Shown: positions 2,439 to 55,700 of the stretch, in pieces
Numbering within the stretch: position 1 is the stretch's first letter
Layout: every line of letters begins with the position of its first letter
Assembly (NCBI GenBank): GCA_947632005.1
Contig: CANRNU010000005.1
Coordinates: 20,084-84,083 of the forward strand
From: an uncultured Oscillospiraceae bacterium
Lineage (GTDB): Bacteria > Bacillota > Clostridia > Oscillospirales > Oscillospiraceae
Direction of reading: 5' to 3'
Length of the DNA: 64,000 nucleotides
Notes under the pieces: generated by a model
Seen by the model: only the letters and a program-made list of their open reading frames with translations
What the model was told of the DNA's origin: nothing
Database searches by the model: none
Made by a program: the position numbers and the translations under genes

Positions 2439-4082
2439 TCATTCCACCGAAAAATCCCCGGTATCCCGGACCAGCTCGCAGAACAGCGATTCCGACCGGC
2501 ACTTCCGGACGAACCGGACGATGCCGCCCGCCGCCCACTCGAAATAGATGCTCCCGGTCCGGAGGGCCGGGTGGGCATTTTTCAGCGCCGCCAGCTCCCG
2601 GTAGAGGGCCTGCATCTCCGTATCCTCCCGGCCCCAGGGAAACGGCAGCCGGTTCATGGGGTCCCGTCCGCCGGTGAGCCCAGCCTCGTCCCCGTAATAG
2701 ATCACCGGGGACCCGGGCAGGGCAAACTGGAGAAAGGCTGCCGCCCGCCGGGCGTTCCGGTCCGGCAGGAGCGTGCCCACCCGCTCCGTGTCATGGGTGC
2801 CCAGCACCGCCATGGTGCAGTCCAGGGCCGGGGCGGGATAGTGCTCCGCGATCCCCATCACCGTCTCCGCCAGGGCGCGGCCGTCGTCCCGACCGGAGGC
2901 AAAATCCAGGATGGCCGTGCGGAAGGGATAGTTGATGACCCCGTCCAGCTCCGCGCCGGTAAAGTACCGCCGGCGGACGCTGTAGCTGATCTTGTTGGAG
3001 GCGTCCTCCCAGACCTCGCCGATGACCACCGCCTCCGGCTTCACCGCCTTCACCCGGCGGCGCAGCGCCGCGATGAAGGCGTCCGGCAGCTCGTCGGCCA
3101 CATCCAGCCGGAACCCGTCCGCGCCCCGGCGCAGCCATGTGGCCACCACGCCTTCCTCGCCCAGGATGTACTCCATGTAGTCCGGGTCCAGCTCATTGAC
3201 ACAGGGCATCACATCCACGCCCCACCAGGCCGTATATTTCTTGGGAAATTCCTGAAAATCGTACCACTTATAGTACTTAGAGGCGGGTCCCGCCGACACC
3301 GCTCCCCCACCGAAGTGATGGTCCACATCAAAATAGACGCTGTGGCTCCCGGTGTGGGAGAACACCCCGTCCAGCACGACCCGCATGCCCTTTTCATGGG
3401 CCGCGTCGCACAGGGCGGTGAAATCCGCCTCCGTTCCCAGCATGGGGTCCAGGCGCATATAGTCCGCCGCGTCATAGCGGTGGTTGGACCAGGCCATGAC
3501 GATGGGATTGAGATAGATGACGTTCACGCCCAGGCCGCGGATATAGTCCAGCTTTGACAGGATGCCCCGCAGGTTGCCCCCGGCAAAGTCGGTGGCGTTC
3601 CGGGTCCGGGGCACGAAGGTGTCGAAGTCCCGGACCGTATAGGGCTCCAGCTTGCCCGTCAGGTCACAGTCGCCGCACTTGGCGAACCGGTCTGGGAATA
3701 TCTGGTAGTAGACCATCCCCCGGTAACTCTCCGGCGGGCGGTAATCCGCCGGCAGCACGCTCATCTGCCAGTCGTCCCCCAGGCCGATGTTGGTGCCGCT
3801 CCCGGCCCGGAACAGGTCGTAGTCGCCGTTTTTGTCCCAGATGTGGAAGCGGTAGAAATACAGCCCGGGCTCCCCCACGGAAAACTCTGCGGTGAAGACG
3901 TCGTAAGGGTCCTCCGTCCCGGTCTTTTCCAACGGCTGTTCCAGTCCCTCCGCCGTCAGCAGTACGCGCCATGCCCCGCACTCGGCGGGGATGCGTATGC
4001 GTATGCGGCAGGTCTGGCCCGCCCATAGTGGGCCGAAGGGGGTCTTATCGGCCCGGTCAAAGCAGTTGTACAGGATGTTCAT
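2439..4082 (-). CDS. GH13 family alpha-amylase / neopullulanase-like glycosidase
   Basis: 547 aa. The order is an N-terminal beta-sandwich (about 1-110) then a GH13 TIM barrel. The conserved regions are all visible: VVLDGVFSHTG (region I), GFRLDVADE with the nucleophile Asp near 326, GEVWEDA with the acid/base Glu near 356, and GTHDTER (region IV) near 428. No signal peptide is seen, so it should act in the cytoplasm on maltodextrins or cyclodextrins, like neopullulanase or cyclomaltodextrinase; the exact substrate cannot be read from sequence. The gene is monocistronic, with a consensus promoter about 80 bp upstream and a shared terminator downstream. The C-terminal barrel-following domain appears short. 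Confidence 0.9.
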   Translation of the reverse strand: MNILYNCFDRADKTPFGPLWAGQTCRIRIRIPAECGAWRVLLTAEGLEQPLEKTGTEDPYDVFTAEFSVGEPGLYFYRFHIWDKNGDYDLFRAGSGTNIGLGDDWQMSVLPADYRPPESYRGMVYYQIFPDRFAKCGDCDLTGKLEPYTVRDFDTFVPRTRNATDFAGGNLRGILSKLDYIRGLGVNVIYLNPIVMAWSNHRYDAADYMRLDPMLGTEADFTALCDAAHEKGMRVVLDGVFSHTGSHSVYFDVDHHFGGGAVSAGPASKYYKWYDFQEFPKKYTAWWGVDVMPCVNELDPDYMEYILGEEGVVATWLRRGADGFRLDVADELPDAFIAALRRRVKAVKPEAVVIGEVWEDASNKISYSVRRRYFTGAELDGVINYPFRTAILDFASGRDDGRALAETVMGIAEHYPAPALDCTMAVLGTHDTERVGTLLPDRNARRAAAFLQFALPGSPVIYYGDEAGLTGGRDPMNRLPFPWGREDTEMQALYRELAALKNAHPALRTGSIYFEWAAGGIVRFVRKCRSESLFCELVRDTGDFSVE

Positions 4083-34221: not shown

Positions 34222-34770
34222 TTAACTCCGTTTTCGCCATTCTATGTCTCCAACCGTACAGCTTGATGTCCAGTATTTCCCTTTAAGATTATCCATATCC
34301 CCATTTAGAACCATCCGACATGTACCTCGTTGAGTTGGATTTTCACGCTCATGTAATGCGGACGGATCAGTAACATAAGTATAGTATAATACGTCAGCTC
34401 TATGTTCCTGCACGATCACTCCAGAAATTGTATAACTTGTATTAATATCTGTTCTTGTAGTTATCTCCACTGAAAGCCATGTTTGCTTCACATATATTGT
34501 AAGTTCTTTTTCGCCCTTTTGTCCGTTGAACTCATATGAGATACTACCATCATATTGTTCATTAAAAACAGGTGGTCTGTTCCACGGAATAAAACGCCAA
34601 AGCCATTTCTCATATACTACAAAAAGAATACTAACGCCAGAGATTGCATATCCGATGTAAGAAGAATAATCACCGAATGATCCCGGCTTTTTTATAAACC
34701 AGCAAATAGCAAAAATAGCTGCAGCTATCAAAACCAAGGGCTTTATGAGCTTCTTGATGCGTTCATTCAT
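34222..34770 (-). CDS. cap15: Cap15-like CBASS effector (two membrane helices plus beta-barrel)
   Basis: 182 aa from the ATG at 34770, with GAGG 8 bp upstream overlapping the stop of the CD-NTase gene region. Two membrane helices (KPLVLIAAAIFAICWFI and SSYIGYAISGVSILFVVY) precede a beta-strand-rich domain (YDGSISYEF, KELTIYVKQTWLSVEITTRT, GTCRMVLNGDMDNLKGKYWTSS), the layout of S-2TMbeta/Cap15. In known systems the barrel binds a cyclic dinucleotide and the protein oligomerises to damage the inner membrane and kill the infected cell. A/T-rich compared with the island backbone. Confidence 0.8.
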   Translation of the reverse strand: MNERIKKLIKPLVLIAAAIFAICWFIKKPGSFGDYSSYIGYAISGVSILFVVYEKWLWRFIPWNRPPVFNEQYDGSISYEFNGQKGEKELTIYVKQTWLSVEITTRTDINTSYTISGVIVQEHRADVLYYTYVTDPSALHERENPTQRGTCRMVLNGDMDNLKGKYWTSSCTVGDIEWRKRS

Positions 34771-34780
34771 GCAATTAACC

Positions 34781-35767
34781 TCATTCATACTCATAAAAGC
34801 GAGACAGAGCATCAATAAAATCACATAATTTCCTTAATGCAGTTGCGTTCTCACACAATGGTTTTATGCCGTTCGCTTCTTTATAATCTGTGAAGGAGCC
34901 TTTTGAGCGTAAAAGTAGCGCAATCATCTGATCAAATGCAAAGGCCCTACGATAATAGTTGCAATTATCTAAATACCACTCGTTATCAATGTTCCACAAA
35001 AGTGATTCCAGCATAAATGAACTAACCCCTTCTGCTACGGTCATATATGATGGATCATCTTTCATAAGGTATCGCATCTTTTTTATAATGCGAACCATTT
35101 TCTTATAATAATGATTTGTCCTCTCATTCTTTATGCGCCCATTAGTAATATGCTGTTCAGGATAGTTGATGATTAATGACCCTTCATCAGGGAAAATCAC
35201 AACACCTCCCACATAATTTGTTTCATCTCGATTATAATCTTTCCGATAGTCTCTGTACCTTAAACATGGAACTGTATCCACGTCTTTACGGTATGTGTTT
35301 CCGTGCACTTTGATTGATTTATTCTTACGTTCAACATCCGAACCGAACGTGTATTCTAAGCATTCTTGAACTTCATCTTTAAAAGTTTTTGCCTGGAGAG
35401 GAGCTGTACAAAAACCATAGTCATCGTCAGATTGTGGATAAGCACTACCTGCCGGTCGATATTCTGTTCTAAACACTTCTTCTTGAATTACAGCAATATC
35501 CACATCACTTTGCGTTCTCACATTAGTGTTATTGGCGTAAGATCCCTGAACAAATATCTTAATCTTTCGATCACTTCCAATAGCCTTCAGTTGCAAGGAG
35601 TAAGAATAAGTGTCTGGATACAGCAAATGTATTCCTTCACTGTCATCGGTGAAACCAATACGTTTAAGGGCATCACCTACCAATCGTATCGAATTCTTGC
35701 AAAGCTGGTCCTCAGAGGTACTGAGCGGCTGAGAGTAGTTATCAAGCATATTTTCCGTGAATTTCAT
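34781..35767 (-). CDS. CD-NTase (cGAS/DncV-like nucleotidyltransferase) of CBASS
   Basis: 328 aa from the ATG at 35767, where GGAGGG stands at the right distance; the upstream track ATG is part of that ribosome site. The nucleotidyltransferase core has FVQGSYANNTNVRTQSDVDIAV (the GS helix and D-x-D metal pair) and a third acidic residue in RKDVDTVP. It makes a cyclic oligonucleotide alarm on phage infection. The pairing with a Cap15-like effector resembles CdnE/CdnB-type type I CBASS. Product cannot be read. No Cap2/Cap3 or HORMA/TRIP13 genes are adjacent. Confidence 0.87.
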   Translation of the reverse strand: MKFTENMLDNYSQPLSTSEDQLCKNSIRLVGDALKRIGFTDDSEGIHLLYPDTYSYSLQLKAIGSDRKIKIFVQGSYANNTNVRTQSDVDIAVIQEEVFRTEYRPAGSAYPQSDDDYGFCTAPLQAKTFKDEVQECLEYTFGSDVERKNKSIKVHGNTYRKDVDTVPCLRYRDYRKDYNRDETNYVGGVVIFPDEGSLIINYPEQHITNGRIKNERTNHYYKKMVRIIKKMRYLMKDDPSYMTVAEGVSSFMLESLLWNIDNEWYLDNCNYYRRAFAFDQMIALLLRSKGSFTDYKEANGIKPLCENATALRKLCDFIDALSRFYEYE

Positions 35768-35863
35768 ACAACCCTCCATTACATTTCTCTTAAACTTATC
35801 CTAACTATATCACAACTCCCCGTAAATTCCAAATAATACTTTTGACTGCTTGATACTAAAACA

Positions 35864-36442: not shown

Positions 36443-39400
36443 TTACCCCACCATCAGCTTGTTGGTCTTCTTCAAATACTTCGCCGGGATGGGGGCATCC
36501 AGCTTCCACGTGATGTTCATGGGCCGGGAGCCCTCATGCTTGACATAGCTCGCCGTGCCAAGATACGTGTACGCCGCCGCAGTGTTCAGTATCCGGTCCG
36601 ACTTAAACTCCCTGACAAACAGAAGCACACGGCTCCCCTGCTCTCGGTGATGGATGTACCGCTGTCCGGTGGCTGAGTTCTCCGCCGTCGTGCTCTGGCT
36701 CTGCCAGTGGAACAGCTCGCTGTTAATGGAGTAGTCGTTGTACATCGTGGTCGGCGAATAGTCCTTGTCGGCCTTATTGAGCGTCACGAAGAACACATCC
36801 AGCTTCTTCTCCGACAGCCACTTCACACCCTCGCGCACGGTCGCCGGCTTCATAAAGTCCAGCGCCAGCAAAATCTGGTCGCGGGTATATGTACAGTGCA
36901 GGTCCAGGGGACAGTTAAAGCCCACATCCACCGGCGCGTCAATGAAGTCGATATGGTCATACTGATACTTCAACAGTTCCATGAGCTCGCCCAGCATGAC
37001 CGGCGAGTCCGCAAGGGAGCGGAGATCGGCCCGCACCTCCTCGCTGTTCCAATCCTCCGCCGCCTTCAGCCAGATGCTCACATAGAGCATCTGCATCATG
37101 CGCTGCTCGACGGGCGCCATTGCCGCCACATCCACGTCGCCTATCCGCGGCAGCACCTCCAGCAGAAATGCTATCCACCGGCGGGAATCAATGGTCGCCA
37201 GCCGCGGGAAGGCCTTTTTCATGGTCTCCTCCGCAGGCTCTGCGAAACCCTCTATCACATCCGCCCGCGCGCACAGCCGGGAGAAGGTCTCAAATTTATA
37301 GATGGAGCGCGGGACGATATGGTAATAGTCCAGGAAGTTGGCCAGTGTCAGAGGCCGTCCTGTATCCTCCTCAAAGCTGGCGATTCGCGCGATGAGGCCC
37401 GCACTGTTCCCATAGGACGCCCGGATGTTGTCCAGGATGTACTTCGCCGCCTTCTTCTCCAGCTGGACGTAGCATCCCTTGGGAAGTGATACGAACCCGT
37501 CCTTGATCTCCCGGCTAACGCTTCGCGTCGTATTGGAAAGCAGCGCCGAGAACTTGTCCTCAAAATTATACTTCCTGTTTGCCTGGCCAATGAAATCCAG
37601 CACGGTCAGGCATTCCTTATTCTCCGCCAGGCGGAGGCCGCGGCCAAGCTGCTGCAGGAAGATGGTCAGCGACTCGGTGGGCCGCAGGAACAGCACCGTA
37701 TTGACCTCCGGGATGTCCACGCCCTCGTTGTAGATATCCACCACGAAGATAAACCGGATCTCCCCGTCGATGAGCTTTTTCTTGGCCGTCTGCCTCTCCT
37801 CATCCGGGGATTTACCGGTCAGGAATATGGACGGGATGCCGTGTTCATTGAAATAGTCCGACATGAACTGGGCATGCTCCACCGTCACGCAGAAGCCCAG
37901 CCCCTTCACATCGTCGATGTCCGTGACGTATTTGAGCAGTGACGACACCACATGGTCCGCCCGGCGCTTGGCCACCATCCCGCTCAGGGTGTAGAGATTA
38001 GACAGCTCACTCCTGTCATACCCGCCGGCAGACCACCTCAGCTGGTCCAGGTCCACCGTGTCCGTCACGCCAAAATACTGGAACGGGCACAGAAGCTTTC
38101 GGTCAATGGCCTCCGGCAGCCGTATCTCCGCGGCGATACGATTGTTGAAATACGGCAAGATGCTCTTGCCGTCCATTCGCTCCGGCGTCGCGGTCAGGCC
38201 CAGAAGGATTTTGGGCTGGTAGTAGTCGAGCAGCATCTGGTACGTCGGGGCTGCCGCATGGTGGAACTCATCCACGACGATGTAATCGTAGAAGTCCGGC
38301 GAAGTCTTCTCCGTAAACTCTTGGGAGTTGAACGTCTGGATGGAGATGAACAGATTATCGATGCTTTCAGGCCGGAAGCTGCCCACAAACATCTCGCCGA
38401 AATTGGCGTCCTTCAGCACCGCCCGAAACGTATACATGCTCTGCCGGAGGATCTCCTCCCGGTGGGCAACAAACAACAGCCGGCAGGGCTTTTCTGGGTT
38501 CTGCCTGCGAAACCGTTTATAGTCCAGCGCCGAGATGACCGTCTTTCCCGTGCCGGTGGCCGCCACCACAAGGTTTCTGGTGTAGCCCCGCACGGAGCGC
38601 TCTGCATTCAGCTTGTCCAGGATCTCCTGCTGGTAGGAGTAGGGCAGAATGTCCAGGGTATAGGCCTCGGCATTGTTGCTGTCAAAGTACTTTTCCGCCT
38701 TCAGCGCCCGGGCCAGCCGCTCCTTCTGCCCCTCATCGTAGTACTCAAACTCGTTGGAGTTCCAGTAGCTCTCAAATGTCGCGGCGATCTTGTCGATGGT
38801 CTCCGGCAGGTCGCTTTTCGTGACCTTCACGTTCCACTCCAGCCCGCTGGACATGGCGGCGTTGGACAAGTTTGATGAGCCCACGTAGGCCGTGGTGAAG
38901 CCGGTATCTCGATAGAACACATATGTCTTGGCATGCAGGCGTGTCCGCTTCGTGTCATAGCTGACCTTGATCTGGGTGTTGGGCAGTTGGCGGAGCTCCT
39001 CGATGGCCTTCACGTCGGTGGCACCCATATAGGACGTGGTGATGATCCGCAGCGTACCGCCGCGCTGGGTAAACGCGGTAAGCTCATCCATGATGAGGCG
39101 CAGGCCGCTCCACTTGATGAAGGAGACCAGCATATCGATCCGGTCGCTGGTGACGATCTCCTTTTTCAGCTCGGTATACATCTGCGGCTCATGCACCGCG
39201 CCGGTGAAAAGGGAGCTCTGCGCGATGGATGTCACGGGCCGGATGATTTCCGCTTTCTCGTCCAAGGCAAACATGCTGTTTTGCCTATCCAGGAGCGCGA
39301 GAAGCTGCTCCGCGCGCTCCGCCACAGTGAGCTCATCGAAGCCGGCCTCGGATGTTTCCGCGATGATCGTGGAAACGATGCGGTTGACCAGCTCCACCTG

Positions 39401-39598
39401 AGAGTTTACATCGCCGCCATTGTCCTGGACATTTTCAAGGCCTTTCTCCACCACGGCGGCCACATACTTTGCCAGGACCTTTGCCGCCTCCGCAGCGTCA
39501 ATGGGCGCGGTCTGGCTGAGCTTGTCTGTCGCGGCAAGCTCTCTATCCAGCGACTTGTTGATGACCTGTTCGTATATCCCGTTGTGAAGCATGTTCAT
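36443..39598 (-). CDS. PLD-SF2 helicase-DUF3427 protein
   Basis: 1051 aa from the ATG at 39598, which overlaps the tag stop (ATGA); ATG 39592 is equally possible. An N-terminal helical part is followed by a single HKD-type nuclease/PLD domain (RLHAKTYVF...GSSNLS, near 220), an SF2 helicase with AATGTGKT (near 351), VVDEFHHA (near 440), GLTATPERMDG and QQLGRGLR (near 650), and a C-terminal DUF3427-type region with a likely nucleic-acid binding role. Such helicases occur in defence and repair islands. Coupling to the 3-methyladenine glycosylase gene points to handling of damaged or modified DNA. Confidence 0.87.
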   Translation of the reverse strand: MNMLHNGIYEQVINKSLDRELAATDKLSQTAPIDAAEAAKVLAKYVAAVVEKGLENVQDNGGDVNSQVELVNRIVSTIIAETSEAGFDELTVAERAEQLLALLDRQNSMFALDEKAEIIRPVTSIAQSSLFTGAVHEPQMYTELKKEIVTSDRIDMLVSFIKWSGLRLIMDELTAFTQRGGTLRIITTSYMGATDVKAIEELRQLPNTQIKVSYDTKRTRLHAKTYVFYRDTGFTTAYVGSSNLSNAAMSSGLEWNVKVTKSDLPETIDKIAATFESYWNSNEFEYYDEGQKERLARALKAEKYFDSNNAEAYTLDILPYSYQQEILDKLNAERSVRGYTRNLVVAATGTGKTVISALDYKRFRRQNPEKPCRLLFVAHREEILRQSMYTFRAVLKDANFGEMFVGSFRPESIDNLFISIQTFNSQEFTEKTSPDFYDYIVVDEFHHAAAPTYQMLLDYYQPKILLGLTATPERMDGKSILPYFNNRIAAEIRLPEAIDRKLLCPFQYFGVTDTVDLDQLRWSAGGYDRSELSNLYTLSGMVAKRRADHVVSSLLKYVTDIDDVKGLGFCVTVEHAQFMSDYFNEHGIPSIFLTGKSPDEERQTAKKKLIDGEIRFIFVVDIYNEGVDIPEVNTVLFLRPTESLTIFLQQLGRGLRLAENKECLTVLDFIGQANRKYNFEDKFSALLSNTTRSVSREIKDGFVSLPKGCYVQLEKKAAKYILDNIRASYGNSAGLIARIASFEEDTGRPLTLANFLDYYHIVPRSIYKFETFSRLCARADVIEGFAEPAEETMKKAFPRLATIDSRRWIAFLLEVLPRIGDVDVAAMAPVEQRMMQMLYVSIWLKAAEDWNSEEVRADLRSLADSPVMLGELMELLKYQYDHIDFIDAPVDVGFNCPLDLHCTYTRDQILLALDFMKPATVREGVKWLSEKKLDVFFVTLNKADKDYSPTTMYNDYSINSELFHWQSQSTTAENSATGQRYIHHREQGSRVLLFVREFKSDRILNTAAAYTYLGTASYVKHEGSRPMNITWKLDAPIPAKYLKKTNKLMVG

Positions 39599-40185
39599 TC
39601 CTCCGCCTGTTCCACGTCCCCGCTCTCCACCAGCTCCCGATACCGGAAGCACTCCTTCACGTGGTCGTTGATGATCCCGCAGGCCTGCAGGTGGGCATAG
39701 ACGGTCACGCTGCCGATGAACTTCATGCCCCGCTTCTTCAGGTCTCCGGCGATGCGGTCGGAGAGTTCGTTGGACGCCGGGATATGGCCTAACTCATGCC
39801 CTTTATAGAGCATCGTCTTCCCGTCGGTCCAGCCCCAGAGATAGTCCGAAAACGTGCCAAACTCCGCCCGGATGCGCTGGACGCACCGGGCGTTTTTGAT
39901 GACCGCCTCGATCTTCCGCCGGGAGCGGATCATGCCGGGCGCGGCCATGATGCGCTCCACATCCTCATCGGTGTAGGCCGCCACCTTGTCATAATCGAAC
40001 CCGTCAAAGCAGCCCCGGAATATCTCCCGCTTGCGCAGCACCGTGTCCCAGCTCAGGCCGCACTGCATGGCCTCCAGCATGAGAAACTCAAACTGCTTGC
40101 GGTCGTCATGGACCGGCACGCCCCACTCCTCGTCGTGGTAGCGTGTCTGCCGCTCATTCATCAGGCACCAGGGACATCTCTGCAT
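39595..40185 (-). CDS. tag: DNA-3-methyladenine glycosylase I
   Basis: 196 aa. It excises 3-methyladenine from DNA. The zinc snap of Tag is complete at the canonical positions: Cys4 and His17 (RCPWCLMNERQTRYHDEEW), with the C-terminal His and Cys in HVKECF; the catalytic Glu38 sits in FLMLEAMQCGLSW. Length is normal. Its stop overlaps the start of the PLD-helicase gene, so the two are translationally coupled, an unusual partnership for a repair enzyme. Confidence 0.94.
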   Translation of the reverse strand: MQRCPWCLMNERQTRYHDEEWGVPVHDDRKQFEFLMLEAMQCGLSWDTVLRKREIFRGCFDGFDYDKVAAYTDEDVERIMAAPGMIRSRRKIEAVIKNARCVQRIRAEFGTFSDYLWGWTDGKTMLYKGHELGHIPASNELSDRIAGDLKKRGMKFIGSVTVYAHLQACGIINDHVKECFRYRELVESGDVEQAEE

Positions 40186-40870: not shown

Positions 40871-40899
40871 TTGACAACTCTTCGCTTTTGTGGCAGAAT
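40871..40899 (+). promoter_or_regulatory. Promoter of the SAM-riboswitch transcript
   Basis: TTGACA, 17 bp, CAGAAT; the expected start lies just before the riboswitch P1 stem. Confidence 0.78.
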
Positions 40900-40905
40900 A
40901 ACAGC

Positions 40906-41035
40906 GACCTATAAAGAGTGCGCGAGGGACAAGCCCTGTGACCGCACAGCAACCTGCCGCCGGCAAGGTGCTAAAGCTTGATCGATAGGGCAGGATAACG
41001 GCAACAGCCCCATCGAGACGATGGGGCTGCTTTTT
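40906..41035 (+). ncRNA. SAM-clan riboswitch (SAM-I/IV-type) with expression platform
   Basis: P1 is CCTAT (40908-40912) with ATAGG (40985-40989). P2 is GTGCG with CGCAC and contains GAGGGA...GCCC and a GTGA segment, as in the S-box internal loop. GCAACC, a P3 hairpin (CC-GCC/GGC-GG), and GGTGCTAAA then match the SAM-binding core. Downstream, CGATAGGGC (the 3' side of P1) can pair with GCCCCATCG, the left arm of the terminator. So SAM binding should stabilise P1 and let the terminator form: an OFF switch. It controls the 123-aa ORF. Confidence 0.85.
41005..41035 (+). terminator. Riboswitch-controlled terminator
   Basis: CAGCCCCATCG / CGATGGGGCTG, 3-nt loop, then CTTTTT. Mutually exclusive with pairing of its left arm to the P1 3' strand. 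Confidence 0.9.
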
Positions 41036-41073
41036 CGCTCTTTATGGGATCTTATCTGTAAGGAGCCTGTATC

Positions 41074-41445
41074 ATGGAAAACACGACTGATCAAACCACC
41101 ACCCCGAAGAAGCAGTACATAAGCGAAGGGCGGGTGCACGCCTTTCTCATCTGCGACCACTCTCTCACCGACAACAGCGCAGAGTTCTATGACTGGCTGG
41201 ATGACGAAGGCTTCACCTTCGGCGGCCGCAAGGGCAATTATGGGGTCTGTCCCTGGTGCTATGCGGACATCACGCGAAAACTCTATGCTTTTGGGATGCC
41301 GGGCGTTCAGGTCGTCCCGGCCATCGGCGGCCACGCCATCACCGTCGATGAATTTAAGACGATCTACGCCATCTACAAGAAGTATGAGGGTAAGGAGATC
41401 TTCACCTTCCACACCAGTCGGTTTGATTATGACGCATCGGATTGA
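41074..41445 (+). CDS. SAM-riboswitch-controlled protein, function unknown
   Basis: 123 aa, AAGGAG before the ATG. No membrane segment. Distinct features are FLICDHSLTDNSAEFYDWLDDEGF, a possible metal or redox pair in GVCPWCYADI, and AYGMPG-like FGMPGVQVVPAIGGHAITVDEFKTIYAIYKKYEGKEIF. I recall related proteins of unknown function from clostridial mobile elements. It is not a known methionine or SAM biosynthesis enzyme, which makes the riboswitch control notable. The nuclease gene follows 78 bp downstream in the same direction. Confidence 0.8.
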   Translation: MENTTDQTTTPKKQYISEGRVHAFLICDHSLTDNSAEFYDWLDDEGFTFGGRKGNYGVCPWCYADITRKLYAFGMPGVQVVPAIGGHAITVDEFKTIYAIYKKYEGKEIFTFHTSRFDYDASD

Positions 41446-41523: not shown

Positions 41524-42480
41524 ATGATACGCTGTAATTTTAGTAAAGTACGCGAACGGGACATGGATCTGCTTTTTATTCAGGCGTTCATGTCAGACCC
41601 TGGTTTTGCAGAACTCGTGGTCAGTGAAACGAAGTTTTCATACCGCCCATTCTCCATTGTAAAGGCCGAACTTTCTCAATCCATCGGTGACCTTGGCGAG
41701 ACTGACATCATCTTTGTCATAGAAGCATGCGGCGTGCGTCATGGGCTTCTCATCGAGGACAAGGTCGATGCGCCGGCTATGCCGGATCAGTATGAGAGAT
41801 ACATAAAGCGCGGGGCGTGGGGTATAAACCATGGCGAGTTTGCAGATTTCTCCGTGTTCATCTTCAGCCCGGAAAAGTACCACGAATTGAATGAAGAGGC
41901 CCAGAAATACGATCATTTCATTTCATACGAGCGGTTCCTGAAGTATTTTGGCGGGAAGGACGACACAATCAGCATCATGAGAAGCCAGCAGCTTGCCCAA
42001 GCCATTAAAAAGGCGAAAAGGCCCCCGACTGCCGACCTGGATCAAGCAGCAAACGCCTTTTTTGTGAGATACAAAGAATACCAGAAGAGATATTTCCCCT
42101 CCCTGAACTGCACCACAAAGGAAACGTCGAACGGCTGGTGGCCGCACTATCCGACCCGGTTGGGAAACGTGTATCTGTACCACAAGATGCAGGAGGGATA
42201 TGTCGATCTGACATTCTCCAATGCGGCACGGGAACTGCCTGCCGTTGAGAAGTTGGCCGAGTGGCTGGAGGACCACGGCATATCCGGCGCCAAGGCAGTA
42301 AAAACCGGCATGGCAGGCGCAGTACGGATCGTCGTCCCAAAGCTGCATGTGCAGGAGCCGTTTGAGAATGCGAGCGAAGAGGATCTGCGGGCTTGCTTTT
42401 CCGCCATTCAATCTCTGGTGGAATTTGCGAACATCGCGGAGCTTGCAAGCTCAATCAGCGCACTGAAAAGGAACAAGTAA
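41524..42480 (+). CDS. PD-(D/E)XK-superfamily nuclease-like protein
   Basis: 318 aa, with AAGGAGGAG upstream. The nuclease core is visible at about 45-85: an acidic helix, GETDIIFVIEACGVRHGLLIEDKVDA with the D...(I)ED-K pattern, and QYERYI following, as in the PDDEXK_4-type family. The C-terminal half carries WWPHYPTRLGNVYLYHKM and an alpha/beta fold of unknown role. Likely a defence or repair nuclease. It may be under the SAM riboswitch through read-through, since only a short CCGCG-CGCGG dyad intervenes. A/T content higher than the backbone. Confidence 0.8.
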   Translation: MIRCNFSKVRERDMDLLFIQAFMSDPGFAELVVSETKFSYRPFSIVKAELSQSIGDLGETDIIFVIEACGVRHGLLIEDKVDAPAMPDQYERYIKRGAWGINHGEFADFSVFIFSPEKYHELNEEAQKYDHFISYERFLKYFGGKDDTISIMRSQQLAQAIKKAKRPPTADLDQAANAFFVRYKEYQKRYFPSLNCTTKETSNGWWPHYPTRLGNVYLYHKMQEGYVDLTFSNAARELPAVEKLAEWLEDHGISGAKAVKTGMAGAVRIVVPKLHVQEPFENASEEDLRACFSAIQSLVEFANIAELASSISALKRNK

Positions 42481-47057: not shown

Positions 47058-47396
47058 AAGGATGCCTCCAGAAGGAGATCTTGGTTAATTTAAGCATGTC
47101 ACCAATTCATTATATTCTAAAATCCTCGTTATGTATAGCCCAAATAGAGGTACGTGCTGTAACCTATGTATTGTTTTCAAAATTGATTCGCTTACGGCAA
47201 CAGCGAACCTGGATTGCTATGTCAAAATGCCGGCAGCGGCGATAGCGGGTGTGATTCCAATACTCCCTTGTGAGTAATAGCTGTGCGTGGTATAATGTCA
47301 AATATTGATAGAATTGTGGTTTTTAAGTAAATGATCTAAACACCCATGAAGTATCTGTCAGATGATGATCAAACCGGCCATATAGGGGGGGAGCAC
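47058..47396. other. Control region ahead of the four-gene operon
   Basis: No gene. TTGTGA, 17 bp, TATAAT (47268-47296) is a good plus-strand promoter. The leader then contains the low-confidence ATG at 47346 and the ribosome site AGGGGGGGAG before the GTG at 47397. Confidence 0.7.
47268..47296 (+). promoter_or_regulatory. Promoter of the four-gene helicase operon
   Basis: TTGTGA, 17 bp, TATAAT, the only good promoter seen for the operon running to 57988. Confidence 0.72.
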
Positions 47397-48980
47397 GTGG
47401 CGTCGCTAACGCATGTCTGCATGTGGTCAGACAACAGTTGGAAGCCAATTACAGCCGAACAAGCTGCAAGACTGCATCCAGGCGGGACAGTATCTGCACA
47501 TAGTGGTCTGTTTATGTGTGACCTCTGTGGTCAATATGTCACTCTTACTGACGGTGATATCAGAATACGGTATTTCAAGCACAGTGCCTCCGAAAAAAGT
47601 AAGGATTGTCCTGAACGTACATTTGGTGCTGGGTATTCAATCTCTTATAACCCCAGGGAACATGCTTTGCCGATCCGTATTACGGATGTATCCTCAACTT
47701 CGTTCAGATTTGAAGTTGGCCTAATTCGTGCTCCAGTAGCTTTCCTCAGCAAAGGTTTTCGCATAGAAATCAAGCCAAAGGGAGTTCCTGGCATATCATA
47801 TGTGTTTAATAGAGAGCGACTGAATTGCGACCACATTACATATCTTCCTATCGGAGAAAGGCCATTTGAAAAATACACTCTCAGTTTTCAGGGTGGAGAC
47901 GGCATATTAAGCGAGTTTTGGCCAGCAGAAATCAATGGTATTGATCCAGATGGGACGTTATTTGAAACGGCTTCGGGCAAGAAGCTTACATACGATGCCG
48001 ATGTCGAGATCGGGAAGGAATACTATCTGTTAAAGCGAGGCCGTATCTGTAAGAGTTCATGTGGCAGTGTGCAAATACGACAAATCACTCAAAAACTCTT
48101 TGGTTGGAATATGTGGTCCCTTTATGTTGTTTCCGTATCTGCATTTGATGAGGATGCCGCACGTTTCTATCTCGACCTTCATTGCCGCTTAACAGATCAT
48201 CCCGTTTCACTACAACCAGTGTGGCCGCTATATGTGGAAGGCAATTATATAATAAAGCATAATCACAACAAGATGTTTATTCTTGTTGATGGCAATATAG
48301 CCGCAGTCAAGACTTTTCCCACTGCGACAGTACATGTACTAAATGACAGAACAGCCAGAGAAAAATTATATGAAGTGTTCTGCTCCGGCAGACAGCAGTT
48401 AATATCCGCAGGCCGCACTCACACCCTGCAATATACTTACTTTTGGAAAGAACCCCTTAATCAAGAGGGGTCACTTCCAACCATTTCAGTAACCGATACT
48501 GCCGGTATCGAGATGGCTCCTGGCGAAGCCACTTCTCTACCGCCCAAAAGAATTCTGTGCTTTAAATCAACCTATGATAGCACGATTATTATTTCCAATA
48601 ATGATCATGTTATAGACAAGCGAACAGTTCCTGCAGACAAATATATTGAGTTGGGCGACCTATCTTTCGGTTTTAGTGTGCAAGTTATTATTGGTCTTGA
48701 TGCTATATGGCAAATTAGATTTAAGAAACACCAGTTAGATGTTGCGGATGACGAAGATGAGCTATTAAAGCAATTAACAAATGTGTCAGGAATATACATT
48801 CCCGTCCCACATTCCATACGAAACATATTGGCAAGGATGAAACGCTATCCTAAAATATGCCAATGGATCAGAAAATGTATAAATAATGGCACTATCAATG
48901 AGCAATCATATCGCAGGTTGCAAAATGCCTACCGTCGCATGAACACAAAAGATAAGGAGATACATTATGAATTACATTGA
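47397..48980 (+). CDS. Operon protein 1: CoiA-like zinc-finger start, otherwise unknown
   Basis: 527 aa from GTG 47397 with AGGGGGGGAG upstream; the track ATG at 47346 has no ribosome site. Near residues 39-75 there is FMCDLCGQYV...RYFKHSA...DCPE, a CxxC-H-C pattern like the N-terminal finger of CoiA-type competence proteins. The remainder is beta-rich with no family I recognise, and the C-terminus is helical. The last 14 bp overlap the next gene. In the context of a defence-like helicase operon it may recognise DNA ends or a substrate. A/T-rich. Confidence 0.72.
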   Translation: MASLTHVCMWSDNSWKPITAEQAARLHPGGTVSAHSGLFMCDLCGQYVTLTDGDIRIRYFKHSASEKSKDCPERTFGAGYSISYNPREHALPIRITDVSSTSFRFEVGLIRAPVAFLSKGFRIEIKPKGVPGISYVFNRERLNCDHITYLPIGERPFEKYTLSFQGGDGILSEFWPAEINGIDPDGTLFETASGKKLTYDADVEIGKEYYLLKRGRICKSSCGSVQIRQITQKLFGWNMWSLYVVSVSAFDEDAARFYLDLHCRLTDHPVSLQPVWPLYVEGNYIIKHNHNKMFILVDGNIAAVKTFPTATVHVLNDRTAREKLYEVFCSGRQQLISAGRTHTLQYTYFWKEPLNQEGSLPTISVTDTAGIEMAPGEATSLPPKRILCFKSTYDSTIIISNNDHVIDKRTVPADKYIELGDLSFGFSVQVIIGLDAIWQIRFKKHQLDVADDEDELLKQLTNVSGIYIPVPHSIRNILARMKRYPKICQWIRKCINNGTINEQSYRRLQNAYRRMNTKDKEIHYELH

Positions 48981-51732
48981 TCTTCTTACCCCGGAAGAAA
49001 AAGACACCCTCTGCAAGATCATCACTGGCCGAGAGTTCAAAGAACTTTTTAAGAATAACGAGCGAGAGTTCCAAAAATTACGAAAGGGCTTTCGGGCTAA
49101 ATCCTTGACAGAGCAGTTTGCGTTGTCTACTGCTATGTCCAACGTCGACAAGCCTTTTATCGCGACGTATATCAATGGGCTAGTAGATATGTGGCTTAAA
49201 GAAATTCAGAAAAATGTAGAGAAGCTTGAAGCGGAAGGATCAACCCATAACGTTGCGTTAGCAACAACAATGCTTGACTCATTTTTTGTCAACAATGTAG
49301 ATTTATACCTCAAGCTCACGGGCAAAGCGTCTGATATGGATACTTGCTCCGCAATTCTTGATAGAATGACAAGTATCAAATCTGAGCGCAAGAGAAATGA
49401 AGAAACAGCTAATCAAATCAGAGCTATAGAAGAAGAAAAACGCCAGTTGTATGATCAGCTTAAAGAGGTGCAGCAGAATGCTAATACTATAAGAACTGAG
49501 TACGAGCGAAGAATCCAAGAAGTTGAACAAGAGAATAGCACATTGACCTCTCAACTGACTGAGGCGCAAGAGAAAATCACAGAATTACAAACTGCTCCTG
49601 CCAAAATTACTAGCGAAGATGTAGATTATCTCGCACAGTATGATGATACCGACGCTACTATTCTACACGCCGTAAGTAATGATGAAATCGTTTCATTGTG
49701 TGGTGTTATCTCAGATTATAATGGCCAAAAATGGCTTATGCGGTATGCTGACCTAAGTAATAACGGGCATTATCATGTTTTTCACAAACGGGAAGACACC
49801 CCATCATACTTCACCAATCGGGATAAGATATTTTATAAAGATGGTCCCTCTAACGATGGTTTCTATGGCATTTGGACTTGGTCCGCGATACCAAGCGAGA
49901 AGGACCCATCAAAAGATTATATTATATCCCGATATAAACCTGATCTTAATGCTATTGAAGTCGCTGTTATAACTAATACGTCAGACCTTGATAGTCTGGT
50001 AAACCAACTGAAGTCCGGAATTGAATACATACCTCACAGTCGTAGGATCATGTTCTCTTTTTGCTCATCGAAAGGGATGTATACAGGCATTCTATGTAAC
50101 TGTGATGAACTCAATAGTATTAATGGAAAGATCTCCTTTTCTGAAGGTTGTGCTGTTGTTCCTATATATGTGTTCCCCAGTGATAATATAATGCGTTTGG
50201 ATAATGGGCTTTCCTTCTACAAAAACGCATTTGCGGGAACGCCAGACAAACTCTACCATTTAAAAACCCCTCTTGAAATTGTAAAAAGCATCGTTACCTC
50301 ATCAATCTCCTGGCCCACATATAAAACAAGGGGAATCATACGTGCTGATTACAGAACTTTTAAGGATTTCCTCTGTGCGATCCCGGTCGATGATATAACC
50401 CGCCAAATTGAGACTGCATGCCATTGTTCCAGTCCTGCTGCAAAAGCATTGCTGGAAGAATTCCTGAGCACAGCCAAGAAATATGTTGATGGAAATAGCT
50501 TAGAAGACGATATAATCCTCTCTGCCATTTCTGCAAGTGCCGAGCTTCAGGAGAGAGCAAAAACACTGATCCGCGCAGATTGGGAAACTGAGAACAAGGG
50601 CTTACTGGCTGACGCCCAAGAAAAGCTCAAAGCACTTGACGGAAAAATAAATGACGCTACCACCCAGTTAGCTGAGGCTCAAGAGGAACTTAATAAGACT
50701 AAATTGGAAGAAGATCGCCTTACTGGCGTCATAGCAGAAAAGGAAAAACTTGCTGAAGATGTTGAAAAGGCAGTATCTGAAAGAATCCAGCAAGCACGTA
50801 AGCATGCGGCCGATTTCATTGCAAACATGGCATTTGTTACTGGTCAACAGATACAACTTTCAGTTGATGTGGATTCTGCCGCAAACAAAGTTGCCTCTGA
50901 TCCTGTTGTTGCCCAATATCAGGTGTTTTCTCCTTATGAAGAACTTAGCGACCTTGAGGCACATCATTCTTGGGCAGACGTGATTGATACAGCTACATTT
51001 GAGTTTGGGGAAGCAGGAGTTACAGAGCAATATAGAAGAGGCTTAGCTGCTTTCCTTTGTGCTGCTTTTATTGAGAAGCAACCAATTTTCCTTGTTGGCC
51101 CTAATTCACTTGATATTGTTCAAGCGTTTTGTGCATCCGTAAGCGCTCACAAATATGGACTGCTATGTTGTGAGGGCAACTATGACAATAAAGTAACTTC
51201 GAGAATTGGTGCCACTGGCGAAGACATTGTGATAATCAATAACCTTCTCTCAAGCAGATGGATGAACCGGCTTCCTGAGATTGTCTTCAATAAGGACATA
51301 TTTTATGTCGCTACTCATCCATATGCAGAGGACATTCAAGTTGAGCCTCAGAGCCTGTATGGATTTGTGCTTCCGCTGTTCACAGAGTTCTTTGTGGACA
51401 AAACAGCAACCGGCAAATACTATGGAGGTTATTTTGCAGATGACTTCAAGCCCTATTCAGCGCCAAAGGGCATACATAAAGAACCGAAAGTCCTCTCAAG
51501 CTTATCCATAAGCTCTTTCGTCAAGAACAGAATCAACAATCTTGTTACTACGATGCATGGCATTTATCCAAGCACAACAGCAGATGACGAATTCTTGTTT
51601 TCCGTCTTTCCCATTGCTTATGCGTCACTGGAAGTTGAAAAACTTGTAGATGCAGTTGCCGATCCACAGAAAGGTTTTACAATTTCTGCAAACCTAAAAC
51701 GTGATCTGCGCCATGTAATGGGAGACGTTTAA
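48967..51732 (+). CDS. Operon protein 2: coiled-coil protein with a degenerate AAA-like end
   Basis: 921 aa, AAGGAG before the ATG. An N-terminal helical domain, a coiled coil (about 135-210), a beta-rich middle (about 225-500), a second coiled coil (about 535-620) and a C-terminal region resembling a McrB/AAA-type ATPase whose motifs are damaged: FLVGPNSLDIV where a P-loop is expected (near 708, no GKT) and DIVIINNLL where Walker B is expected (near 753, no DE). Probably a structural or sensor subunit rather than an ATPase. No family recognised. It ends in TAATG overlap with the next gene. Confidence 0.72.
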   Translation: MNYIDLLTPEEKDTLCKIITGREFKELFKNNEREFQKLRKGFRAKSLTEQFALSTAMSNVDKPFIATYINGLVDMWLKEIQKNVEKLEAEGSTHNVALATTMLDSFFVNNVDLYLKLTGKASDMDTCSAILDRMTSIKSERKRNEETANQIRAIEEEKRQLYDQLKEVQQNANTIRTEYERRIQEVEQENSTLTSQLTEAQEKITELQTAPAKITSEDVDYLAQYDDTDATILHAVSNDEIVSLCGVISDYNGQKWLMRYADLSNNGHYHVFHKREDTPSYFTNRDKIFYKDGPSNDGFYGIWTWSAIPSEKDPSKDYIISRYKPDLNAIEVAVITNTSDLDSLVNQLKSGIEYIPHSRRIMFSFCSSKGMYTGILCNCDELNSINGKISFSEGCAVVPIYVFPSDNIMRLDNGLSFYKNAFAGTPDKLYHLKTPLEIVKSIVTSSISWPTYKTRGIIRADYRTFKDFLCAIPVDDITRQIETACHCSSPAAKALLEEFLSTAKKYVDGNSLEDDIILSAISASAELQERAKTLIRADWETENKGLLADAQEKLKALDGKINDATTQLAEAQEELNKTKLEEDRLTGVIAEKEKLAEDVEKAVSERIQQARKHAADFIANMAFVTGQQIQLSVDVDSAANKVASDPVVAQYQVFSPYEELSDLEAHHSWADVIDTATFEFGEAGVTEQYRRGLAAFLCAAFIEKQPIFLVGPNSLDIVQAFCASVSAHKYGLLCCEGNYDNKVTSRIGATGEDIVIINNLLSSRWMNRLPEIVFNKDIFYVATHPYAEDIQVEPQSLYGFVLPLFTEFFVDKTATGKYYGGYFADDFKPYSAPKGIHKEPKVLSSLSISSFVKNRINNLVTTMHGIYPSTTADDEFLFSVFPIAYASLEVEKLVDAVADPQKGFTISANLKRDLRHVMGDV

Positions 51733-52739
51733 TGGACAAGTATACCGGGCTTCTTTCAGTCATATCAAACCAGTATCACATCAAAAGAGGACTACAAGAA
51801 ACTGAAGAAAGTTGGAAAACACGTCTGATTTATAGCATCTGTGGAATGATGGCTTATGCGGCACTTTGGGATGATCTTGAAGAGCCAATTTCCATTGTGC
51901 ATTTGAAGAAAAGAATCCGCAGCATACTTTCTGCTTACAAATCAATCTACCCTGAGCTTTCCATAAGTTTACCGTATGCCTCCGCAGATCTTGAGGACGA
52001 GATCGCTAACCTATTTCTAAGCACAGGGGTAGTTTATCACCGCCCTAACAGAATCGCTCCATCAATGAAACACGAAGAGTTGTTCAGCGGTATTCTGTTC
52101 CAACGGGGTATTCCACTTGATAACATTTCCCATGTCTCTGGTATTGGGTATTACTCAAAACAAGATGGAGGCACAAATCCAGATAAGATAAAAACAATGT
52201 TCGGCCTTGAGCAAAAGAATCTGCAGCTTTTGTGGCACGAAACATTAACCACTGCTATCTGGAAATCCACTCAGTTTTTTGAACATAACATAGAATATCT
52301 CCGCCTAATGCCTCCATTCACTCGAGGATATTGGATAACCACGCCAGATACTACTGGTGTAGTTTCAATCCTTCGAATCGGAGTAAACGGTTCCCAACTG
52401 TATTATCTTTACCGTTATGCTGGCGCAACACTAGAAGTTAGTCCTCTTCCTCAGTGGCAAGTGGAGTCCTCTCATTACAGAACACTTGCATGCGCCTGTT
52501 TATCAACCTACGGTACATTGGCGCCAATAGAGTTTGCTGAGGATGGTGAATTGACCCATATACGTTTTGGCTATTTGCTTCCTCCCCGCGAACTTGATTT
52601 TTTGAAGCTCTACAGTTGGCCTGAGGAATGCACATCACTCCCAAGCGATTTTAAGCGAAAGCTATCAACAGAAGTCTTTAGGGCTATTAGGGATATTCTA
52701 TCTGATGAAGGATATAAATTTAAAGGAGCGACGATCTGA
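51732..52739 (+). CDS. Operon protein 3: unknown 335-aa protein
   Basis: Start overlaps the previous stop (TAATG) and its stop overlaps the next start (TGATG), so it is translated as part of the set. The protein is soluble, helical at the start and mixed alpha/beta later (RGYWITTPDTTGVVSILRIG, LACACLSTYGTL). No catalytic motif is visible and no family is recognised. Tight coupling to the helicase gene suggests a stoichiometric partner. Confidence 0.7.
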   Translation: MDKYTGLLSVISNQYHIKRGLQETEESWKTRLIYSICGMMAYAALWDDLEEPISIVHLKKRIRSILSAYKSIYPELSISLPYASADLEDEIANLFLSTGVVYHRPNRIAPSMKHEELFSGILFQRGIPLDNISHVSGIGYYSKQDGGTNPDKIKTMFGLEQKNLQLLWHETLTTAIWKSTQFFEHNIEYLRLMPPFTRGYWITTPDTTGVVSILRIGVNGSQLYYLYRYAGATLEVSPLPQWQVESSHYRTLACACLSTYGTLAPIEFAEDGELTHIRFGYLLPPRELDFLKLYSWPEECTSLPSDFKRKLSTEVFRAIRDILSDEGYKFKGATI

Positions 52740-55700
52740 TGACAACTGGAGCTAATTCTGTTCATAAGCAACTGCGGACGGAGTTGGAAGACTATATTAA
52801 ATCGCAGTATTTTGGAAAGTCACCGCTCCTTCTTTCAGCATTAAATAATCATATTGATGACGAAGGCTTGCTCTATCAGAAGCCATTTATTGAGTCATCT
52901 CCTGCATATCTTACAGTACAAAACGGTATTGAAGGAGCATCTATTGAGCCCTGGATGAAAGAGTATTTTTTGCAACTATCTGAGGCGGGAATTGGTGTTT
53001 TCCCATCTCCATTTGCTCATCAGATTACCGCACTTGAAGCTGCGGTCAAAGGAGAAGACCTATTCGTTTCAACCGGCACAGGTTCTGGTAAAACAGAGTG
53101 CTTTATGTGGCCGCTTCTTGCAAAGATGGCAGCTGAGGCAAAAACATCCAAGAAAACGTGGGAAAAACGGGGTATTCGCACAATTATTATGTACCCAATG
53201 AACGCCCTAGTTTCTGACCAAGTTAGCCGACTTAGGAGGATGATTGGAGATCCTGATAAGAAGTTTATCCGGATTTTCAGAAATACCTGCGGTAGTGAAG
53301 TCCGCCGCCCTCAGTTTGGCATGTATACCGGCAGGACTCCGTACCCCGGGGAGCAGTCTTCTCCAGGACAAGACAGAAAACTAGAAAAGACCTTGGCAAG
53401 AATGTCTTTTCCACAGAATGATTCTGAAAAAGAGTTCTTCAGTCATCTTCTCAAGGAGGGAAAGATCCCTGCAAAGGATGATATGAATCTGTTCCTGCGC
53501 GGGCTTCATGAAGGTAGGCATATTCCAAACGATGAGGATGCGGAGTTAATAACCCGCTTTGAAATGCAGCAATTCTGCCCGGACATTCTTATTACGAACT
53601 ATTCCATGCTGGAATACATGCTGCTACGCCCAAGAGAACAGAAAATCTGGGATGATACACGCGAATGGATTAATTCAAATCCTAACAACAAGCTGCTTTT
53701 TGTCATTGATGAAGCTCACATGTATCGCGGCTCATCGGGCGGCGAGGTTGCGTTGCTGATTCGCAGACTTTTCCATAAACTCGGGATTGGCCGGGATCGT
53801 GTACAATTCATACTTACTACCGCAAGCATGCCCAACAAGGATCAACAAGACATTGATTCTGTAATGAAGTTCGCAAATGAACTTACCGCCTCCGACACGG
53901 GTAGTCATTTTCGTTATCTCACCGGTGAAAAAGAGGTCATTGATGGGCAGTTGAAGTATGATATACCAGTTGGGCTTCTCTTAAACTCCGATCCTAATGA
54001 ATTTGAGAACAAGGATGAGGTAAAGCTTTCTGCGCTTTTGTCGTTCTGGCGTCAGCTAGAGGGCTTTGACCAAAGCATCAGCACTCTGGAATCAGTTTGC
54101 AACTGGATGTACGAAAATCTTGTGTATTATCGTCCATTTCATGAACTCATAAGGTATTGTCGTGGAAACGCAGTATCTTTAAGCGAACTGTCTTCTGGCA
54201 TCTTCCCTGATCTCGGTCAAGAAAACGCATTAAAAGCTGTCAGCGTCCTTTTGGCTATGGCACCTCTTGCAAAAAACGATAAGGGCTCTGTTCTTTTCCC
54301 GGCACGCATGCATATGCTTTTTAAAGGTATTTCAGGCGTCTATGCATGTGCAAATGTGGATTGCAGTTGTTCTCATTCTGAAGGAGGCCTTACTTTAGGG
54401 GAGCTCTATTTGTCTGATGGTAATTTGATTTGCCCGCATTGTGGCAGTGTTGTATATGAGCTTTATAACGACAGGCGCTGTGGCGCACTATTCTTCAAGG
54501 GCTATGTCCTTGAAGATGACTCAAATCTTCATGGGAATGTATACCTGTGGCATTACCCCGGTCAGTTAATGGACCACCGGATGAAAGAAGTACATTTATT
54601 TATCCCCACAGATGATTTTGAGTTGCCCGCAAAGCAGGGTAAGAATGTCATAAAGCCATGTTATCTTGATGTCAAGAGTGGGTTTATCAACTTTACAGAT
54701 GATTCTTCCGCCAATAAGCCCTGGATGAGAAAACTATACTACTGCAACTACTCCGCAAAAGGTAGGCCACAAATTATCACCTTCCCTACCTGTCCACATT
54801 GCAGGCATCAGCTTTCCACATTGCAGCTTACATCATTCAGCACTCGAGGGAATCAATCTTTCTTCAACTTAATCCAATCGCAGTTTCAACTGCAACCTGC
54901 CGTACAGGGAAAAGATAGCGATCCTGATCGCTTCCCTAATGAGGGACGCAAAGTTTTACTGTTCTCGGATAGTCGTCAGCGTGCAGCAAAGTTAGCCAGA
55001 GATATGTCTGATGCGTCAGATATCTCCGCCGCAAGGCAGTTGTTCGCGATAGCAATAAAAACAATGGAAGATCAAACTGTCGAGCAATCAATGAATTCGC
55101 TGTACGATTACTTTTGTCTTGCAGCTGGTCAACATCACGTGCAGATGTTCCATGCCCATGAACGTGCGAAGTTCGCAGAAGATTGTGCTTTTGCAATGAA
55201 CAACTATAGACGATGCGCAAGGCGAGGAATATCCTATACTCCGAGATTTACTATCGCAAACGCTCCAGTGCAGATGCAAGAGCATCTTCTTCGATTGTTC
55301 GCTGGTGGCTATAACACCTTGTACGACTCCGCTACAAGTTGGCTTGAACCTACTGATCAAGCGCTCTTTGATGCTATTGATGCTCTTGAAGAAAACAATA
55401 TAATTGTCACTGATGAAGAGTTCATTGAGCTTTTCAATGCCTGGATGCTATCAATCTGTGACATGTATACAGCTATTGGCCATACTATCAATGATTCAGT
55501 TCGTTTAAAAGTTCGCCCAAACTATGGTGGCTATGGCCTTGACAAAGATTGGGAATTTTCAAAAGTCATCCATGAAATCATGGGATGGGGTGACGAAAAT
55601 GAAACCGAGTTGGTTTGGAAACGAGTACTAAAAGAGGCATTTCTTGACTCTGCACAGCCTGATAATGGAAAACTATATGTCGATCTTTCTAGAATAAAAC

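Follow-up and report, generated by a model that had tools for sequence, protein, structure and literature searches.

A predicted P4-less SAM riboswitch with two locks upstream of an uncharacterized small protein with genomic links to metK

Introduction

The described systems closest to the locus presented here are the SAM-I and SAM-IV riboswitches. In SAM-I, the residues located within 5 Å of SAM are 6–7, 11–12, 44–47, 57–58, and 87, and SAM-IV is devoid of P4 but contains P5 and PK-2 (PMC6890682). In C. acetobutylicum, a SAM-I riboswitch controls an antisense RNA, and the target of this regulation is methionine-to-cysteine salvage (PMC2258182).

The locus under study lies in a 64-kb stretch of DNA, further called the window. 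In a first-pass annotation, it was described as an OFF-type riboswitch of the SAM clan that controls a gene located in a mobile island, encoding an unknown 123-aa protein and unrelated to methionine metabolism. Here, we describe a computational analysis of the aptamer, its expression platform, and the downstream gene. In the reading that we favor, with a probability of roughly 0.6, a SAM-OFF leader RNA with two locks controls a 123-aa protein that belongs to a rare family with a link to the supply of SAM.

A SAM-I-like Aptamer without P4

A cmscan analysis of the window revealed only one RNA family, i.e., SAM (RF00162), at 40906–40991 of the + strand (61.7 bits, E = 6.6e-12). This score is above the gathering cut-off of RF00162 (44.4 bits), and thus the core elements of a SAM-clan riboswitch, which had been read from the sequence earlier, were borne out. 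RF00162 wins the clan competition and, since it is the best-scoring model in clan CL00012, membership of SAM-IV or SAM-I/IV was rejected. Other matches in the window in a permissive RNA-family scan were at chance level. The aptamer is composed as follows:

40906–40991, + strand: SAM-clan (SAM-I-like) aptamer without P4 (cmscan and alignment)
40908–40912 with 40985–40989, + strand: P1, aptamer helix
40918–40922 with 40943–40947, + strand: P2a, aptamer helix
40926–40928 with 40934–40936, + strand: P2b, aptamer helix
40930–40933 (CAAG) with 40977–40980 (CUUG), + strand: pseudoknot, tertiary pairing of the aptamer
40948–40958 with 40962–40972, + strand: P3, aptamer helix

A P4 helix is absent between P3 and P1. 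The P4 positions of the model are deleted in the window as well as in three other riboswitches discussed below (L012, L049, and L024). This absence had been overlooked in the first-pass annotation, as had a hairpin at the Shine-Dalgarno sequence (see below). Upon inspection, no PK-2 or P5 as found 3′ of P1 in SAM-IV and SAM-I/IV was seen; the P3 loop is short and not conserved, and P1 is followed by a spacer of variable length. On the basis of its architecture, we classify the aptamer as a SAM-I-type variant lacking P4 rather than as a plain member of SAM-I. The kink-turn in P2 was judged from the sequence only.

To evaluate the structure, we aligned 17 aptamers lacking P4; 96.6% of the pair cells in this alignment contain standard pairs. 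Strong covariation was seen for P1, P2, P3, and the pseudoknot. Both-sided changes were found in 16 of the 26 pairs, with 5.1 expected from shuffles, and all four pairs of the pseudoknot covary with 100% pairing, which was equaled in 0 of 500 shuffles; kinship among the aligned sequences inflates both of these shuffle statistics. When the pseudoknot partner was slid by one column, pairing dropped below 40%.

The residues that are near SAM (PMC6890682) are invariant in 17 of 17 aptamers except for positions 8 and 59, and the pocket residues U7, G11, C44, A45, U57, and G58 do not vary. Position 59 varies, but its partner covaries. Position 8, also near SAM, is a C in the leaders of metK and never a C in the orphan leaders; thus, affinity or specificity could differ between the two groups. 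Possibly, the variant aptamer has a shifted ligand preference, e.g., for SAH or another SAM relative, in which case the gene would answer to the methylation balance. The absence of P4 and the nature of position 8, unlike that in metK aptamers, would be consistent with such a shift. However, it is hard to reconcile with the invariance of the six pocket residues and with the presence of P4-less aptamers upstream of metK as well, and we consider a shifted preference improbable. SAM itself is very likely the ligand that the window aptamer binds.

In 99 related genomes, the SAM riboswitch matches fell into two size classes, i.e., a full-length class, mostly of 96–118 nt and about 74–95 bits, and a short class, mostly of 84–99 nt and about 30–62 bits. 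Two short yet high-scoring exceptions are both located upstream of metK. A motif test showed metK downstream of at least 26 of the 29 best full-length matches fetched. As to the low-scoring short matches, two precede the 123-aa gene (G000 and G295), nine precede other small uncharacterized genes, and four precede metK, so that aptamers lacking P4 are also seen upstream of a canonical SAM gene. The host genome, an incomplete assembly of 2.3 Mb, contains a second SAM riboswitch, which is full-length (84.6 bits) and precedes metK. In other families of the order, metK is preceded by SAM aptamers that lack P4 and have an extended pseudoknot (L085, L086, L092, and L093).

Two Predicted Locks in the Leader

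The leader contains the following elements around the aptamer:

40871–40899, + strand: sigma-70-type promoter with a TG upstream of the −10 (TTGACA-17-CAGAAT; pattern match only)
40983–40991, + strand: CGATAGGGC, the 3′ strand of P1 and alternative partner of the left arm of the terminator (antiterminator; pairing energies)
41005–41035, + strand: intrinsic terminator with an 11-bp stem (41005–41029) followed by C and TTTTT (pattern match and folding)
41037–41066, + strand: Shine-Dalgarno-sequestering hairpin, 41037–41047 with 41056–41066 (pairing probabilities)

With TTGACA at 40871 and CAGAAT at 40899, transcription is predicted to start at about 40905–40906, i.e., right at the beginning of the aptamer. 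Promoter and terminator are both pattern matches, and such matches are no more numerous than in shuffled versions of the region. The 3′ strand of P1 pairs with the leader up to the T-run at −14.1 kcal/mol, as compared to −7.6 kcal/mol in shuffles, of which 1.3% were as good. These values support the earlier proposal that this strand can pair with the left arm of the terminator, and the OFF-type logic, the terminator, and expression upon SAM depletion, as originally proposed, all found computational support as well. We regard the OFF logic of the riboswitch as well supported.

The second lock concerns the Shine-Dalgarno sequence AAGGAG at 41060–41065, which has a probability of being paired of 1.00 in the window, a value that was reached in 0 of 200 shuffles. 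For the 5′ arm of its hairpin (41037–41047), the 5′ strand of the aptamer is an alternative partner (−19.4 kcal/mol, 0.7% of shuffles). In 16 orphan leaders, the Shine-Dalgarno sequence is buried with a median probability of 0.96, vs. 0.62 in 28 metK leaders (one-sided Mann-Whitney p = 1.3e-5 among sequences that are related). In the window and in the majority of the orphan leaders, the two alternative pairings are better than those of shuffles, which is not the case for the three metK leaders tested. Two orphan leaders are exceptional, as the Shine-Dalgarno sequence is not buried in L083 and the 5′-strand pairing is absent in L049. L087, L090, and L091 possess the Shine-Dalgarno hairpin without a terminator. 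In these three leaders, a matching change of AAGAG to AGGAG in J1/2 of the aptamer preserves the complementarity to CGCGCTCCT.

In the proposed mechanism, the P4-less aptamer would form when enough SAM is available, and P1 would keep CGATAGGGC off the terminator, as a result of which transcription would stop. In transcripts that are nevertheless extended, the Shine-Dalgarno sequence would be locked in the second hairpin. When the SAM level falls, the 3′ strand of P1 would pair with the left arm of the terminator and the 5′ strand of the aptamer with the anti-Shine-Dalgarno strand. Judging from the energies, both locks should be shut in the presence of SAM and open in its absence. Once they are open, the 123-aa protein would be made, probably together with a 318-aa nuclease-like protein.

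The Downstream Genes and Their Relatives

Two genes follow the leader:

41074–41445, + strand: ORF for the 123-aa protein, founder of small-protein family 1, with a predicted β-α-β-β-β-α fold
41524–42480, + strand: 318-aa protein, probably encoded by the second gene of the transcript, with a PD-(D/E)XK-nuclease-like motif (TDIIF...LLIEDKVDA) recognized by eye

In agreement with its earlier designation as an unknown, the 123-aa protein has no match in Pfam or NCBIfam, and matches in PHROGs were at chance level only. No match was found in the PDB by sequence, and a fold search with its AlphaFold model, which is of medium quality (pLDDT 77), yielded nothing below E 1. In Pfam, NCBIfam, and the PDB, nothing pointed to homology with known enzymes or transporters in methionine/SAM metabolism, nor does the protein contain a toxin or known defense domain. 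Searches of phage and plasmid proteins gave no match to family 1.

Family 1 is rare. It was found in 2 of 301 genomes from the family of the host, in 4 of 391 genomes of the class (one of the four being doubtful), in 6 of 201 genomes of an alphaproteobacterial order, and in 12 of 120 Methanobacteriales. L008 and G416 were rejected as relatives, since their matches were at chance level or unclear. In some Methanobacteriales (L037, L038, L039, and L042), the family 1 domain is duplicated in tandem, in some cases fused to TPR-like repeats. Genes for ADP-ribosylglycohydrolases are found near family 1 in rumen Alphaproteobacteria and Methanobacteriales alike (L006, 3355–4173; L034, 2661–3375; L035; L036).

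A check for riboswitches covered the Firmicutes and viral relatives identified. A same-genus copy of the family 1 gene (L003/G295) is preceded by a SAM riboswitch scoring above the cut-off. Divergent relatives are located behind SAM riboswitches in three further lineages, i.e., in a Firmicutes contig with conjugation-type genes (L012/G647, 55.7 bits), a Firmicutes genome (L049/G1274, 49.0 bits), and a viral contig (L024, 46.6 bits). All these scores are above the cut-off, and the protein identities are 33–51%. In the viral contig, one extra ORF separates the riboswitch from the relative, and a gene for a DNA C5-methylase is located downstream. No riboswitch was found upstream of another Firmicutes relative (L011/L025, G613), and the archaeal relatives scanned showed no SAM riboswitch. 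About 77 SAM matches were counted in 99 genomes of about 2 Mb, from which we infer a rough chance frequency of well under one per thousand genes.

The second link is with metK, which is located directly upstream of the family 1 gene, with a gap of 10–12 nt, in L004, L005, L006, L028, and L031; in L032, the family 1 gene behind metK is a remnant. Thus, each of the six gene-carrying genomes of one alphaproteobacterial order shows the link, the remnant included, whilst the flanking genes differ; the link comes from this single bacterial order. The MetK concerned is divergent and the only one found in G690 and G691. It matches the Pfam SAM-synthetase families, with the N- and C-terminal domains over the cut-off and the middle domain just below it. 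In the same-genus genome G295, a second, divergent metK (L022, 1495–2574) is located beside genes resembling mobile-element cargo.

Thus, several lineages show a genomic linkage of family 1 with either SAM riboswitches or SAM genes. As relatives are located behind SAM riboswitches in three other lineages and behind metK, it is doubtful that the gene is unrelated to methionine metabolism, as originally claimed, and it does not appear to be a stray target. An ordinary S-box leader could have been captured by chance before an unrelated gene without any adaptive role, which would agree with the rarity of the gene (2 of 301 genomes of the family) and its location in a variable region. However, the recurrence of the pairing in three further lineages at 33–51% protein identity, the conservation of both aptamer and expression platform, and the tie to metK elsewhere render such a chance capture very improbable. 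Most likely, the 123-aa gene is a new, uncharacterized member of the SAM regulon. Its product would most likely be a factor acting at SAM shortage, e.g., in association with MetK or with enzymes that use SAM, and family 1 would be a rare, horizontally spread family carried as cargo of mobile and defense DNA.

A Defense Island and a Second Small-Protein Family

The surroundings of the locus contain the following genes:

34222–35779: CBASS operon, oligonucleotide cyclase and 2TM/Cap15-type effector
36443–39652: type IV methyl-directed restriction enzyme containing PLD, helicase, and DUF3427 parts
39595–40185: 3-methyladenine glycosylase
47346–57988, + strand: large four-gene operon

Of the products of the last operon, a 335-aa protein weakly matches DruD (Druantia) and a 921-aa protein weakly matches DruC, JetC, and LmuB. 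It is possibly a divergent Druantia-like system. The mobile island of the first-pass annotation is more exactly described as a defense island, considering the CBASS operon, the type IV restriction enzyme, and the weak Druantia-type matches around 49–52.7 kb. DNA similarity to the same-genus locus L003 is interrupted between about 42.48 and about 45.89 kb, and the riboswitch cassette is kept; thus, the cassette lies in a variable defense region. The 318-aa gene is kept together with the riboswitch in that genome, and a pattern search detected no + strand terminator between the 123-aa and 318-aa genes. The 318-aa protein has no match in Pfam or PADLOC.

Short aptamers also precede genes for a different family of small proteins of about 100 aa, designated family 2 (L083, L084, L087–L091, and L095). 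Family 2 was found in a Ruminococcus phage record (PV036439.1) and in two IMG/VR contigs, and all three of these sequences contain a SAM riboswitch (60–62 bits). A pattern based on the aptamer sequence identified 14 stretches in viral contigs, some of them near-identical, and family 2 is encoded by the first gene in 11 of these; a stricter DNA pattern of the aptamer found nothing in viral contigs. Some of the family 2 aptamers in phages and viral contigs lie beside genes for DNA methylases. In the literature searched, the coverage of which was incomplete, no report of a SAM riboswitch on a phage genome was found. The structure model of family 2 (pLDDT 80.5) yielded nothing below E 1 in a fold search of the PDB. 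Families 1 and 2 show a similar order of predicted elements, but homology between them is not claimed because of the hhalign E-value of 0.02 and low probability. The same P4-less leader also precedes genes for proteins of 83 aa (L094, 4589–4837) and about 91 aa (L117, about 3165–3440), which perhaps represent a third family.

These contexts bear on the main rival explanation, in which the 123-aa protein and the nuclease-like 318-aa protein would form a cassette for defense or counter-defense that is held off by the double lock. It would be released when an invader drains SAM, e.g., by a phage SAM-degrading enzyme, or when methylation-based defense fails; in phages, the switch would serve the phage. 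The CBASS cyclase and effector, the type IV restriction enzyme, and the weak Druantia-type matches around the locus, the P4-less switch before family 2 in phages and viral contigs, in some cases near DNA methylase genes, and the cost of leaky expression suggested by the double lock all point in this direction. However, the alphaproteobacterial metK operon has no defense context, a toxin or known defense domain is lacking in the 123-aa protein and a PADLOC match in the 318-aa protein, and any mobile gene is expected to associate with islands. Such an effector role is rather unlikely. The same holds for its broader version, i.e., that the P4-less, doubly locked riboswitch is a portable module of phages and mobile and defense elements in gut Firmicutes, with SAM depletion releasing small effectors of two or more families in phage-host conflict, which we put forward only tentatively. 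A factor in SAM supply is favored over a SAM-depletion effector, a preference in which the function of the protein is inferred.

Implications and Comparison with Known Riboswitches

The findings would add at least two uncharacterized small-protein families to the SAM regulon, of which family 1 is tied to SAM by two independent lines, i.e., the riboswitch and the metK operon. They also reveal SAM riboswitches on phages, describe a SAM-I-like aptamer without P4 combined with locks at a terminator and at the ribosome-binding site, and offer a concrete way to ask whether the methyl-donor level of the host is sensed by phages and mobile elements.

The riboswitch in the window has P1, a kink-turn-containing P2, P3, the P2-loop pseudoknot, the residues of the SAM pocket, and the terminator-based OFF logic in common with SAM-I (S-box, RF00162). 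It differs from SAM-I in the absence of P4, in the second lock on the Shine-Dalgarno sequence, and in its target, an uncharacterized small protein on mobile/defense DNA. With SAM-IV (RF00634), it shares the lack of P4, the SAM core, and PK-1. Like the SAM-I riboswitch of C. acetobutylicum (PMC2258182), it represents a case of an unusual SAM-I riboswitch target in Clostridia, but the target in the window is a sense mRNA for an uncharacterized protein rather than an antisense RNA.
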